Positions 2,358 through 13,289 of a stretch of 23,764 nucleotides of DNA are shown in pieces (within the stretch, counting starts at the first letter, position 1; every line of letters begins with the position of its first letter). The notes beneath the pieces were generated by a model. That model did not search any database, was not told where the DNA came from, and was given only the letters and a program-made list of their open reading frames with translations. The DNA comes from a virus, in IMG/VR virus record IMGVR_UViG_3300009409_000053, positions 1-23,764 of that record. The stretch is one strand, 5' to 3'. The translations under genes were made by a program, and so were the position numbers.

Positions 2358-2855
2358 ATGGCTCTTTCAAAAGAAGAACAAAGGAGACTGCTTAAGGCTC
2401 TTGCTAAGAAGGACAAGCAAAAGGGTCGCTCTGGCAAGTCTGCACAGAAAAAAACGTCTACTCCACAGGTTCGCTCTGAGAGTGATCTTGAAAAACTGCT
2501 GCGTGAAGGAAAGATAACCGAAAGGCAATATCGTTTACGCAAAACAGCGAGGGCGGAAGTTGATCGCACCAATAAGAACTCGAAGGACCGTAAAAAGAAG
2601 CAGGAGTCATTCAACTCCTCTACAGAGAAGCAGAAAGCGCAGGAGAAGAGTACGGTCAGCGCCGTAGAGAACGAAGAGTTAAAGAAAAAATATAGGGCAC
2701 GCGACGGTCGCGAGCAGAAAGGAGCGGCGAAAAAGACCCAACTCTCAAAGATGTTGAGGAGGAAGAAATTAACCGCCTCTCAATACAAATTGAAAATGGA
2801 TGAAACCCGGAAAAGACTAAAGGCTGCGAAAGCCACAAGAAGGTCGTTCTTATGA
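2358..2855 (+). CDS. Lys-rich protein, two SHOCT-like motifs
   Basis: A 165-residue, extremely basic protein. A SHOCT-like helix-turn segment occurs twice: residues 44-70 (LEKLLREGKITERQY onward) and 129-155 (LSKMLRRKKLTASQY onward). The two share the pattern L-x2-(L/M)-L-R-x2-K-(I/L)-T-x2-QY-(R/K)-L. SHOCT segments are short C-terminal oligomerisation or binding motifs in many bacterial proteins. The region between is Lys/Arg/Gln-rich, probably helical or disordered. The basic charge suggests nucleic acid binding, which is inference. It begins two bases after the HNH-like gene and its TGA overlaps the next ATG (ATGA), so it is probably in one operon. No known phage family was recognised. Confidence 0.7.
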   Translation: MALSKEEQRRLLKALAKKDKQKGRSGKSAQKKTSTPQVRSESDLEKLLREGKITERQYRLRKTARAEVDRTNKNSKDRKKKQESFNSSTEKQKAQEKSTVSAVENEELKKKYRARDGREQKGAAKKTQLSKMLRRKKLTASQYKLKMDETRKRLKAAKATRRSFL

Positions 2856-3130
2856 CAGCAGAAAATATTCAGCGCGAGCAGCGGCGGCGACAGCAGGAGC
2901 AGGAAAGATCTGGTGAGATGGATTTATCACCTAGCGGAATAGATATTGGTCATAAAGGTCGGCCACCACCGACAGATTTCGACGCCCCGACTAAAAACAT
3001 GCTTAATATCGTGCGTACCGCAAGCGCGATGGAAGATAGCACTGAGAGAGCGATTAAAGATATTGAGGCTCTGCGGAGAAACACATTGAATTTGGCAGAA
3101 GAAGAGAGAAAGAGGAGAGCCGGGGCATGA
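2852..3130 (+). CDS. Small charged hypothetical protein
   Basis: A 92-residue protein of unknown function. An N-terminal Arg/Gln/Glu-rich helix (residues 4-20) is followed by a Pro/Gly linker (24-45). The C-terminal amphipathic helix, about 47-90, has heptad-like Ile/Leu spacing (IKDIEALRRNTLNLAEEE). It is probably a coiled-coil protein. The gene is coupled to both neighbours by four-base ATGA overlaps, which supports it being real and co-translated. Its place before the terminase would fit a packaging accessory role, but nothing in the sequence shows that. Confidence 0.65.
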   Translation: MTAENIQREQRRRQQEQERSGEMDLSPSGIDIGHKGRPPPTDFDAPTKNMLNIVRTASAMEDSTERAIKDIEALRRNTLNLAEEERKRRAGA

Positions 3131-3912
3131 ATCAGCAATTTCTTCAGGCTTTGGCCGATTTGCGAAAAACCCGCCAACGAACTTTTGATTGGGACAAGTG
3201 GAAGGGTGTTGAGCCCGGTGCTAGTGGGTGGAAGGCTATGCCGTGGCAGGGCAACACTCCGCAGGTCATTGTTTATGACCCCAAGACGGGCAAGGCGTAT
3301 CCAAATCCGCAGGCGGCTACGTCTGCTGGGGTTATAAATTTTGCTTATAACCTTCCTTCGGGAATGACCGTCGATTGGTCTTATTGGGATCAGTTTACTC
3401 AACCAATGGCGCCGTCTACCACGGCTTCTCCAATGATTGCGGATCAAACTTTGCCGTTCAATCCGGCACCTTATTCTCCAAATCAGTACCCAGCCGCTAC
3501 TCCCCCAGTAAACAGCAGCCTCGCGCAAGATGAGCCCGAGGAAGAGCCCGAGGAAGAGCCAGTAGCGCCGGTTGATCCTTTTGCGGGGGTTAGCGCAGGA
3601 AGGCTCGCGGAAGCGAAAAGATACGCTGATGCAGGGATGTTTGGTCGAGCCAAACAGCAAATTGAATTGGGTGGCGGAACATGGGACGAGTCCGCCGACC
3701 TAAGTCAGACACTTAGGTCTGAAGCCTCCACCACGGATAATTATGGTGGCGACTTTAAGGACCAAGAGGGAATTAATGCCGTTGTTTCGAAAATAACATC
3801 TGACGGAAAGGTGGGTAAGGCTAAGAAAGCGTATGTGGCTGCGGGCGGTACTTGGAGTAAAGCGGTGCATAAGAGGCTGAAGGCCACTTATAACAGACAG
3901 AATAATAGTTAG
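3127..3912 (+). CDS. Paralogue A, unknown virion-cluster protein
   Basis: A 261-residue protein and the upstream member of a tandem pair with the gene at 3923. Residues 47-124 form the shared core: VYDPKTGKAYPNP, GVINFAYNLPSGM, DWSYWDQF, then MIADQTLPFNPAPYSPNQYPAA. An acidic-proline linker with EEEPEEEP (138-145) follows. The C-terminus has two copies of a short repeat: AGMFGRAKQQIELGGGTW (168-185) and DGKVGKAKKAYVAAGGTW (226-243). No known domain was recognised. The Pro/Tyr-rich core and the linker suggest an elongated structural or scaffold-like protein. The start is coupled by ATGA to the previous gene, and AGAGGAGAG upstream is a good ribosome binding site. Confidence 0.75.
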   Translation: MNQQFLQALADLRKTRQRTFDWDKWKGVEPGASGWKAMPWQGNTPQVIVYDPKTGKAYPNPQAATSAGVINFAYNLPSGMTVDWSYWDQFTQPMAPSTTASPMIADQTLPFNPAPYSPNQYPAATPPVNSSLAQDEPEEEPEEEPVAPVDPFAGVSAGRLAEAKRYADAGMFGRAKQQIELGGGTWDESADLSQTLRSEASTTDNYGGDFKDQEGINAVVSKITSDGKVGKAKKAYVAAGGTWSKAVHKRLKATYNRQNNS

Positions 3913-3922
3913 GCGCTTAAAT

Positions 3923-4684
3923 ATGACCTTCTCTCAAGATTTCTTAAAGAAGTACGCGCAGATAGCGGCACAGAATCAGCAACAGGCGGCTGCAACAACC
4001 GGCGTGGCTGGCGAGATCGATGTAAAAACGAAGAAGGAGAAGGGCGGCAGGGTCGGGTGGAATTATTCGCTCCCAACTGATGTGGATGTGGTTGTGTACG
4101 ACCCTTACTCTGGCAAGGCGTTCCCAAGCCCGTCAGTAGCAAGGGATCAGGGCGTTACACGGTTTGTTTATAACCTCCCGCCGGGAATGAAGATTGATTG
4201 GTCATATTGGGAGCAATTTTCACAGCCGAAAGCGCCCGTTGCGGGGGCTGGAATGCCTATTGCGGATCAAACTTTGCCATTCAAGCCCGAGCCGTATTCT
4301 CCAAATGAATACCCAGCAGCGCAAACTGCGGCGCCCGCATCCAATAATGATGATGGCCCTGCGGCAATTGACTACACCAATACAAGCGCTGATTACTGGA
4401 GAGATATTGCGGCTAACCGCGCTGACGAAGTATGGATACCTAATCTTGAGAAGACTGGTGCCGCTCAAACGGTGGGTGGAATCGCTAAAGCGGCTGGTAT
4501 ACGCGCCGTCACTGGAAGCAATTATGCGTCCAATGACACCTCACAGACCCAGAAGGAGATTGTTGTAGCGAGGAGGGACCGCATGGGCGTATTGCCTGGA
4601 AATGCTGGTTATGACCCGAATACTTATGAGGGCGATCCCGCTAATAATCCCAATGCCGATTGGGAAGCGGGTGGGGGAGCGTAA
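3923..4684 (+). CDS. Paralogue B, unknown protein before terminase
   Basis: A 253-residue protein. Residues 57-133 match the core of the upstream gene almost position for position (VVVYDPYSGKAFPSP, RFVYNLPPGMKIDWSYWEQF, PIADQTLPFKPEPYSPNEY). The N-terminus is Gln/Ala-rich and helical. The C-terminus (about 140-253) is unrelated to the partner: it lacks the GGTW repeats and is Asn/Asp/Gly-rich. The gene ends immediately before terL, the position usually held by the small terminase subunit, but I see no helix-turn-helix or typical TerS layout. The function is unknown. Confidence 0.75.
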   Translation: MTFSQDFLKKYAQIAAQNQQQAAATTGVAGEIDVKTKKEKGGRVGWNYSLPTDVDVVVYDPYSGKAFPSPSVARDQGVTRFVYNLPPGMKIDWSYWEQFSQPKAPVAGAGMPIADQTLPFKPEPYSPNEYPAAQTAAPASNNDDGPAAIDYTNTSADYWRDIAANRADEVWIPNLEKTGAAQTVGGIAKAAGIRAVTGSNYASNDTSQTQKEIVVARRDRMGVLPGNAGYDPNTYEGDPANNPNADWEAGGGA

Positions 4685-6292
4685 TTGGACTCTGTTGAGT
4701 TCATAAATAAAGCCAAAAGTTACCTGCCTACGGCCTCTTTGCAGGAGGCGGGTATTTTTTATAAAAACCTGCTAACCAAGAACTATGATTTAACCCTCAT
4801 TGCCGAATTGGCGAAGGTGGATCGTTGGTTTCTCTTGCTTGTTGTTTTGAATAGAAAGGACGCCGTACACCCTTGGTTGTACGACCGATGTAGAGAGGTG
4901 GAGGCTAACCCCGATGGGATGCTAGATCTCTGGGCGCGAGGCCACTACAAGTCAACGATCATTACTTATGCGGGAACGATTCAGGAGATCGTAAGGAATC
5001 CTAATATAACGATTGGAATTTTCTCGCATACGAGGCCCATAGCGAAAGGGTTCCTCAAGCAGATAAAGCGCGAATTTGAGATCAATGATTTTTTACGGCA
5101 GTTATTTCCTGAAGTCTGCTACCAGAATCCTCGGCAGGACTCTCCGCAGTGGGGCGAAGAGGCTGGGATTATTGTTCGACGCAAATCCAACCCAAAGGAA
5201 GCGACGGTAGAAGCGTGGGGCTTGGTTGATGGGCAGCCCATATCCCGCCATTATGATTTGCGAATATATGATGACGTTGTAACGAGAGACTCTGTAAACA
5301 CGCCAGAGCAGATATCGAAGACAACGGAAGCGTTAGACCTTTCCCAGAACTTGGCCGGAGGCCAAAACAGGGAATGGTATATAGGGACTCGGTATCACTA
5401 TGCTGATACTTATCGCGAATTGATAGATCGTGGTACGCAAACCAGAATCTATCCCGCGACAAAAGAAGGAACCCCGGATGGAAGCCCCATTCTCTTCACG
5501 CAAGATGAGTGGGATAAGAAGAAAACATCTATGGGGCAGTACGTTTTGGCTTGCCAGATGTTACAGAATCCAATCGCCGGGTCTGAGCAGGTCTTTGACC
5601 CAGAGTGGATTAGGCGAATAGAAGTTCGCCCACGCATTTTAAATATTTACATCATGTGTGACCCCGCGCATTCAAAGAAAGCATCGTCCGATAAAACCGC
5701 TATTGCGGTAGTTGGTGTTGATCACGCTTTTAATAAGTACCTGCTGGATGGCGTGTGCCATCGAATGAATCTTAAAGAGCGGTGGCAAACTCTAAGAAGG
5801 ATTCGCGAAAGGTGGGTGAAGCAGACCGGGGTGCAGACGGTAAAGGTTGGTTACGAGCGATACGGAAAGGATTCCGATATCGAGCATTTTCAGGAAATGA
5901 TGAAAATTGAAAGTCATTATTTCCCAATAAACGAATTGGCGTGGCCAAGAGAAGGGCCAGGTTCTAAACGGGATCGCGTTCAAAGACTACAGCCCGACTT
6001 TGAGAACTGGCGCTTCTTCTTGGCCCCGTCTTCGGACAGCCTAACTTCACGCCAGAAGAAGGCATTTGAGATGGGAGATGGTTCGCTGATTGTTAGACCC
6101 ATTAGATACAAAGATGAGAATGGTCGCATGTATGACCTTACTCAGAAAATGATCGACAATGAGTACAACCTTTTCCCCGCAGTCCATGTTGACATGCTGG
6201 ACGCTATGTCGAGAATTTATGACATGAAGGCATCCCCGCCACAGACTCTATTCGGTGACGATCTGGAGCCAGAAGCGGTTCCCGCTTATTGA
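4685..6292 (+). CDS. terL: Terminase large subunit
   Basis: A 535-residue packaging motor protein. The ATPase domain pumps DNA through the portal into the prohead and the nuclease domain cuts the concatemer. A Walker A-like motif ARGHYKST is at 84-91, with Lys89 as the likely phosphate-binding residue. Walker B LRIYDDVV (192-199) has Asp196/Asp197, and a possible coupling segment GTRYHYAD is at 234-241. The RNase H-like nuclease follows, with candidate metal ligands Asp326 (MCDPAH), Glu391 (GYERYG) and Asp503/Asp506 (HVDMLDAMSR). The length is typical. The start is TTG, supported by GGGGGAG just upstream. The Walker A departs from the classic GKT/S form, as is common in terminases. The gene sits before the portal, unlike T7. 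Confidence 0.93.
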   Translation: MDSVEFINKAKSYLPTASLQEAGIFYKNLLTKNYDLTLIAELAKVDRWFLLLVVLNRKDAVHPWLYDRCREVEANPDGMLDLWARGHYKSTIITYAGTIQEIVRNPNITIGIFSHTRPIAKGFLKQIKREFEINDFLRQLFPEVCYQNPRQDSPQWGEEAGIIVRRKSNPKEATVEAWGLVDGQPISRHYDLRIYDDVVTRDSVNTPEQISKTTEALDLSQNLAGGQNREWYIGTRYHYADTYRELIDRGTQTRIYPATKEGTPDGSPILFTQDEWDKKKTSMGQYVLACQMLQNPIAGSEQVFDPEWIRRIEVRPRILNIYIMCDPAHSKKASSDKTAIAVVGVDHAFNKYLLDGVCHRMNLKERWQTLRRIRERWVKQTGVQTVKVGYERYGKDSDIEHFQEMMKIESHYFPINELAWPREGPGSKRDRVQRLQPDFENWRFFLAPSSDSLTSRQKKAFEMGDGSLIVRPIRYKDENGRMYDLTQKMIDNEYNLFPAVHVDMLDAMSRIYDMKASPPQTLFGDDLEPEAVPAY

Positions 6293-12293: not shown

Positions 12294-13289
12294 ATGGCTA
12301 CAGCAGACGACTCGGGTGCTAGTACAGAAGGGGAAATAGACGGAACAACAGACGGAGGTCACCCAGATCATGGAATGAGTGGCATTAGTGGTCCTACCGC
12401 TGGTTCTGGAATGGAAAGTGATGTAGGTGGTGCGGCTTCAATGGGTCTGGCTGGCACCTCTGGTGGCGGCCCCACACAGTCTGAGGGCGATCCTACATCC
12501 GCAGATTTGGCTGCGAGCAGGACGGCGCTTGATAAGGCTGCCACGAGTGCCCGCCGTAGCGCATTGCTGCGGGGGATGCCAGCGTATGGGAAAAAAAGCC
12601 CTTTTTCTAAAGCCACCGCGAAAAATCCTTCTGGAACTCCCGCAGGCAAGTACGACGCGTATGACCAGTCTGAGTCTCATAAAAACAAAGAATCCATACA
12701 CGCAAAACAAAATCCCGCAAAACAAACTCACGCTAAAGGGCCGCACTTCGATCCAAAGCAAGCGTACATGGATAAGGTTGATGATCAGAAGCAAAGGGAT
12801 TACGACACAAACATAGAAAACATGAAGGTTGACGTTAAACAAACGCTGGCGAAGGTTAATCAAGTGACGGTAGTCACATACTTTGGCATCCCACATAACA
12901 AGAACGTAATGAGCAAGTATGACCGCGAGAATGCATTAAAGGGTTTGCGGGACAAGTGGGGGACCACACTTGATGCCTACTCCAAGGATTTCAATAAAGC
13001 GGCGAAGTCAGCGCCTAAAGACCCTAATGTAAAAGGATTGCTGGGCACCATTATGGGGATGATCCCCGGTATGTCTGCGGCACAGGCACTTAGCGGCTAT
13101 GCCACGGAACATGGATGGGGTTACACCGAAAGCGATATTGAATCCGCAATACATGATGCTGAAGACTCGGCTGGAATGCATGAGGGGGACCATGGTGCGG
13201 GCGGAGAGGATGAATGGAGAAAGGAGAAGGATGTTGACCTCAACTCTTCTGGCGGCGGCATCATAATGGACGTAATCAACCCTACCTAA
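12294..13289 (+). CDS. Gly/Lys-rich probable virion protein
   Basis: A 331-residue protein of unknown function. Residues 1-70 are Gly/Ser/Asp-rich and disordered. Residues 95-170 are Lys/His/Asn-rich and very basic. A more ordered part follows: VTVVTYFGIP (191-200), a helix with RENALKGLRDKWGTTLDAYS (211-230), and a hydrophobic helix GLLGTIMGMIPGMSAAQAL (248-266). The last 60 residues are acidic and Gly-rich. A membrane-active helix within a flexible chain would suit an internal or ejected virion protein, but that is inference. GTATG follows the previous stop within four bases, so the two are co-transcribed. Confidence 0.6.
   Translation: MATADDSGASTEGEIDGTTDGGHPDHGMSGISGPTAGSGMESDVGGAASMGLAGTSGGGPTQSEGDPTSADLAASRTALDKAATSARRSALLRGMPAYGKKSPFSKATAKNPSGTPAGKYDAYDQSESHKNKESIHAKQNPAKQTHAKGPHFDPKQAYMDKVDDQKQRDYDTNIENMKVDVKQTLAKVNQVTVVTYFGIPHNKNVMSKYDRENALKGLRDKWGTTLDAYSKDFNKAAKSAPKDPNVKGLLGTIMGMIPGMSAAQALSGYATEHGWGYTESDIESAIHDAEDSAGMHEGDHGAGGEDEWRKEKDVDLNSSGGGIIMDVINPT

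Follow-up and report, generated by a model that had tools for sequence, protein, structure and literature searches.

The internal proteins of bacteriophage T4 (IPI-III and Alt) combine diverse bodies with one capsid targeting sequence (PMC3012670). Here we describe two phage proteins, encoded by the adjacent genes A and B, that may be likened to them in architecture: A, B, and several mini-ORFs of related phages have a short common N-terminal segment and are otherwise diverse, and the C-terminal modules are unrelated. Unlike the T4 proteins, A and B have an additional conserved core of about 45 residues and long linkers, and their genes lie at the gene for the large terminase (TerL). The T4 proteins have a prohead protease site and a head location, whereas A and B are known from their genes alone. 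The slot directly upstream of TerL is shared with the small terminases (TerS; PF03592, PF20901, phrog_51, phrog_309, and phrog_1206), from which A and B differ in having no HTH match, in being longer (253 to 261 amino acids [aa]), and in that modular genes of the same kind coexist with a separate TerS in a sister group of phages. A core-like segment (VVVYDPNTGQQYGSPQQANQAGVSNPVMSLPPG) occurs in the N-terminal part of the homologues of HMO-2011 gp25 (YP_008320287.1) in contigs L021 to L024; these proteins, however, have 700 aa or more, the rest of their sequence is unrelated to A and B, and HMO-2011's own copy lacks the segment. Finally, like tail fibers and decoration proteins with swapped tips, A and B have a conserved base, a repetitive linker, and tips exchanged by recombination, but they show no fiber, lectin, or Ig-like match and lie in a packaging cassette.

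The pair is located in a virus record of 23,764 bases, analyzed over its whole length (referred to as the window) and derived from an uncultured and probably marine phage. From about 1 kb, the gene order is FkbM-type methyltransferase, HNH-like gene, a 165-aa gene, a gene here called MED, A, B, TerL, portal, and capsid. Both open reading frames (ORFs) were present where the initial annotation had placed them, A (P0001, 261 aa) at 3127 to 3912 and B (P0002, 253 aa) at 3923 to 4684, both on the plus strand. Also on the plus strand are the borders of the slot, namely, the constant HNH-like gene upstream (2080 to 2355; phrog_4590, with an HNH_3 E value of 2.4e-5, just under the Pfam cutoff) and TerL downstream (4685 to 6292; phrog_38, E 4e-52), as well as MED (2852 to 3130; 92 aa), the small gene that most constantly accompanies the cassette. 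The portal is of the SU10 type (PF23899, E 3e-36), and the capsid protein matches phrog_1357. The 165-aa protein (2358 to 2855), encoded between the HNH-like and MED genes, is basic and contains two similar segments (LEKLLREGKITERQYRLRK and LSKMLRRKKLTASQYKLKM); among the neighborhoods listed, its gene was found only in the window and in L016 (1982 to 2476). A short ORF at 1742 to 2068 joins a signal-peptide-like start to the C-terminal end of a gene of about 360 aa found in relatives (L016, 533 to 1618; L027, 1830 to 2933; ...YGSRASFL...), with about 250 residues between them missing, and looks like an internal deletion. Farther downstream, two large proteins (15502 to 18429 and 19472 to 22489) have common Gly/Thr-rich repeats of the type GGTGYTSVPTVTITGGGGSGA.

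Each protein of the pair consists of an N-terminal helix of about 19 residues, a core of about 45 residues, a flexible acidic or Pro-rich linker, and a variable C-terminal module. The helix is predicted; the weak structural models show one N-terminal helix and then loop. In A, the N-module (residues 1 to 19; 3127 to 3183), common to gene B, is followed by the core (residues 47 to 91; 3265 to 3399), an acidic/Pro linker (3400 to 3567), and a GGTW C-module of two repeats, predicted to be helical (3598 to 3903). In B, the N-module (residues 1 to 20; 3923 to 3982), the core (residues 56 to 100; 4088 to 4222), and the linker (4223 to 4354) lead to a C-module of the DEVWIPNLEK type (4355 to 4600).

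The core similarity reported in the initial annotation is real. BLASTP aligned residues 47 to 137 of P0001 with residues 56 to 146 of P0002 at 53 of 91 identical positions (58%; E 8e-34), a stretch that takes in the linker in addition to the conserved core proper of 45 residues, and the local alignment score was 301, compared with a mean of 41 (standard deviation, 7.3; maximum, 69) in 500 shuffles. A 20-base stretch (ATTGCGGATCAAACTTTGCC) is exactly the same at 3436 to 3455 and 4259 to 4278; when synonymous codons were drawn independently in simulations, 0.3% of the runs contained an identical stretch of at least 20 bases. The ends of the proteins, first described as unrelated, are so at the C termini, where 755 of 1,000 shuffles aligned as well, but not at the N termini. 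Pairwise comparison alone gave no significant result there (88 of 1,000 shuffles), yet with relatives added the first 19 or so residues match (hhalign 95.9%, E 6.1e-9; 0 of 5,000 column permutations). The GGTW pair of P0001 is a genuine internal repeat (1 of 1,000 shuffles as good). The Asn/Gly-rich tail ascribed to P0002 is confined to about the last 30 residues, whereas residues 145 to 226, approximately, form a conserved module common to relatives and to two other phages; it is present in L003 to L007 and, without the core, in L008 and L009. C-terminal ends of the type (E/G/F)SDR (FESDR, WESDR, GFSDR, and RGSDR) occur in several proteins among L003 to L007, L008, L009, L016 B, and L068 (327 to 701) and are perhaps a C-terminal tag; P0002 of the window ends otherwise.

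The family had been called unknown, in agreement with our searches: for the core, Pfam, NCBIfam, and PDB gave no match and PHROGs no significant one. Likewise, P0001, P0002, and their relatives found no meaningful match in Pfam, PHROGs, or NCBIfam, nor did the pair match PDB sequence profiles. Hits to phrog_18294 (0.019) and phrog_3655 (0.3) were short and below significance and were dismissed. The AlphaFold models of P0001 and P0002 are of low confidence (pLDDT, 60 to 61; pTM, 0.31); with these weak models, Foldseek gave no fold match (best E values of 1.8 in pdb and 0.25 in the viral set), and the best VIA hit of P0001 had a Z score of 3.4, with no hit returned for P0002. A likeness of the core to NUMOD/IENR-like DNA-binding domains (a hairpin and then a helix, YDP..GK.Y..P..A...GV) was considered but was unsupported by Pfam scans of 12 cores and was dropped. 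Neither protein was matched in a tblastn search of cultured phages (50,697 phage records), a scan of genome contigs with the core returned no match, and literature searches found virion proteomics neither for this phage group nor for HMO-2011 gp25, and no experiment on virion location, binding partner, or C-module action.

Relatives were collected from scans with both proteins, the core, and TerL, yielding about 80 loci; the profile of the 45-residue core detects it in some thirty contigs. Type A proteins (P0001) start with MMSPxFLxxLxxLRQxRxR, are mostly basic, and usually end in GGTW repeats, mostly two, with more in L040 and L049. Type B proteins (P0002) start with MYSxDFLxRYAxL and have a Pro-rich or acidic linker (up to 29% Pro), followed by a C-module that belongs to one of seven or more groups; relatives reach 401 aa. 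Where the slot is in view from the HNH gene to TerL (28 contigs, including near-copies, among them the window's own twin), 13 contigs have A and B, 13 have B only, and 2 have neither; overall, the relatives do not present a single gene without sign of duplication. The pair is widespread in this phage group, and A is optional. B directly follows MED wherever both are complete. A lies upstream of MED in L018, L035, L037, L040, and L049 and at or after it in L016, L036, L039, and L065; in the window, both A and B come after MED. Among cultured phages, Vibrio phage 219E41.1 and Escherichia phage HelliStehle_Bas95 are the nearest in capsid (about 51% identity); the genes that they carry upstream of TerL are TerS or unrelated ones, not relatives.

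In a phylogenetic tree of the cores, which comprises 50 columns only and is weak in within-group detail, a single branch (94/87 support; 0 of 500 label shuffles) divides the A cores from all others, with P0001 grouping with L016 A and P0002 with L016 B. The P0001 core has a mean identity of 70% to A cores of other phages, compared with 54% to the P0002 core. Judged from these sequences, the separation of the A and B groups and the greater closeness of P0001 to foreign A cores than to P0002 indicate that the gene was duplicated before these phages diverged, and hence not recently. The initial annotation had suggested duplication with end replacement. The two genes are indeed paralogues, and C-terminal replacement is visible at the DNA level in relatives, but the duplication is old. 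One such mosaic is L040 B, which is 95 to 100% identical in DNA to L049 B from the N-module to the end of the core, over about 420 columns. Beyond the Pro-rich linker, it is mostly 85 to 100% identical to L027 (69% in the final 39 columns); over the N-module and core, the L027 protein is only 44% identical to that of L040 B. The changeover point lies inside the Pro-rich linker. The mosaic demonstrates directly that recombination around the linker exchanges C-modules.

Parts of these proteins recur in other settings. A scan with the GGTW module revealed a sister group (L129 to L134, L137, and L139 to L141; the TerL of L129 is 52% identical to that of the window). In this group, the gene that immediately precedes TerL has a different N-domain, which probably represents a divergent form of the core (hhalign 76%, E 2e-5), and carries the same GGTW and KGT modules (scores of 129 to 179 and as high as 601, with shuffles reaching maxima of 52 to 66). 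The NPDL module probably recurs in these TerL-adjacent genes as well, and L140 has two such genes in tandem upstream of TerL, the second with an L020-like module (a modest score of 73 against a shuffle maximum of 59). The window gene at 12294 to 13289 showed weak kinship to the sister-group upstream genes in one single comparison (E 0.003) and none in another. Within the slot, mini-ORFs carry the N-module without the core (L005, 8729 to 8932; L007, 3070 to 3264; L059, 311 to 514), and L060 retains the N-module alone. Outside the group, where core-like matches were preselected by the YDP motif, such a domain is found in the relatives of HMO-2011 gp25 in L021 to L024, beside tail-fiber genes, and at the N terminus of a 461-aa gene of L109 (4935 to 6320; VIVYGPDGKAYPSPAAAQAAGV), among virion structural genes and beside a phrog_3287 protein. 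The C-module of P0002 appears at the end of the late block in L008 and L009, after a gene of about 2,400 aa.

The reading that we tentatively favor, at a little short of an even chance, is that A and B are an old paralogous pair whose anchor and core attach interchangeable cargo to the apparatus of packaging or of the capsid, in the manner of the T4 internal proteins. The shared helix and core would act as an anchor that recruits A and B to a common partner, located on the capsid during its assembly or on the packaging vertex. The linker would tether a swappable payload going into or onto the virion, much as a common targeting sequence serves the diverse bodies of the T4 proteins; the target of the payload may be the host, DNA, or envelope. 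That mini-ORFs in the slot retain the N-module alone suggests that this module works as an independent anchor. The presence of core-like domains beside virion genes and of the P0002 C-module in the last late gene of L008 and L009 suggests that the proteins are associated with the particle. A virion location may be proposed on the basis of gene neighborhood and of core-like matches preselected by YDP.

It is possible, although unlikely, that the proteins serve instead in surface decoration or adhesion, the core binding the outer capsid or tail and a Pro-rich stalk presenting a variable binding domain. The long Pro/Thr-rich stalks of B, the swapping of tips, and the proximity of the core-like domain to tail-fiber genes in L021 to L024 are compatible with this; the tips, however, are small, are predicted by the weak models to be mostly helical, and are basic in A, and the genes are in the packaging cassette rather than with fiber genes. 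Pfam and the fold search with these models gave no lectin, Ig, or fiber match, although such a domain may escape these searches.

The slot also houses genes unrelated to the pair. In about one-third of the loci, a 2OG-Fe(II) oxygenase (PF13640, E 7e-16; e.g., L037, 5373 to 5996) lies between B and TerL, although not in the window. Two close TerL relatives, L070 (69 to 1283) and L071 (932 to 2554), have unrelated ORFs of 404 to 540 aa with HExxH motifs (HEPMH and HELAH) in the pre-TerL slot, possibly metallopeptidases by this motif, with no Pfam match. Such company would fit A and B being nonvirion accessory proteins, acting in host takeover or counterdefense from a variable slot. We consider this distinctly unlikely because a partner common to all versions is implied by their shared N-module and core, the setting is that of late genes, and core-like domains lie beside virion genes in other phages.

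The initial annotation had placed the pair where the small terminase is expected, and as to position this is correct: phages with a TerL at 43 to 54% identity carry a true TerS immediately upstream of it (L073, PF03592, 3e-30; L075, phrog_1206, 8e-47; L077, PF20901, 3e-28). The four TerS families tested were not found in ten records of the window's group, all possibly incomplete, and A proteins are, as noted, mostly basic. It is nevertheless improbable that A, B, or both are the small terminase or a functional replacement that recognizes phage DNA for TerL. Searches of Pfam and PHROGs gave neither an HTH nor a TerS match for them, even at an E value of 10, and the core is not helical in the weak models (pTM, 0.31), which say little about the helical, ring-forming oligomerization core of a TerS. 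At about 27 to 28 kDa, estimated from length, they exceed a TerS protomer (about 15 to 21 kDa [PMC9611059]). Moreover, the modular proteins coexist with TerS: where the sequence of the sister loci reaches far enough upstream (L131, L137, and L141), it encodes a separate TerS-like HTH protein (phrog_309, E 7e-8 to 8e-9), and L142 has the order GGTW-bearing protein, true TerS (PF03592, 1e-13), TerL. In L066 and L068, it is MED, not a core gene, that precedes TerL. MED is more constant than the core genes in the window's group and, by conservation, would be a better TerS candidate than A or B. More doubtful still is the idea that the group has no HTH-type TerS, with MED, the HNH-like protein, and A/B starting packaging and C-module swaps changing DNA or capsid specificity.

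The initial annotation had also raised recent gene conversion of the core. For the core this is not borne out, but there is moderate support for an exchange of the linker segment of about 33 residues that holds the 20-base identity (residues 92 to 124 of A, which resemble the B linker in codons). This segment is 64% identical between A and B of the window, and foreign B linkers fit less well (12 of 720 permutations). Its same-codon excess is high within the window (z, 3.3 to 3.5), compared with 0.4 to 1.2 between the window and its L016 orthologues and 1.8 between window A and L016 B. Both the codon excess and the 20-base identity are explained if the linker was swapped between A and B after the split from L016, as the codon comparison moderately supports. 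Similar linker sharing is seen at the protein level in the L036/L039/L065 group. A recent tandem duplication whose ends diverged in this one phage, with no special function, could account for the adjacency of the genes, the 20-base identity, and the codon-level likeness of the linkers, but it can hardly be correct, being contradicted by the core tree with its separate A and B groups, by the same pair in 13 contigs, and by the lineage-dependent position of A before or after MED.

Our findings show that the core and the GGTW module, undescribed in the family libraries searched, are recurrent across many uncultured phage contigs, where they mark a slot beside the packaging motor in which phages freely trade tail modules. 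The comparison also warns that the place of a gene alone is poor ground for the name "small terminase." If the proteins do become part of virions, the unit of N-module and core would offer a natural vehicle for bringing varied proteins into particles, and the C-modules would be a candidate collection of phage effectors or binders.
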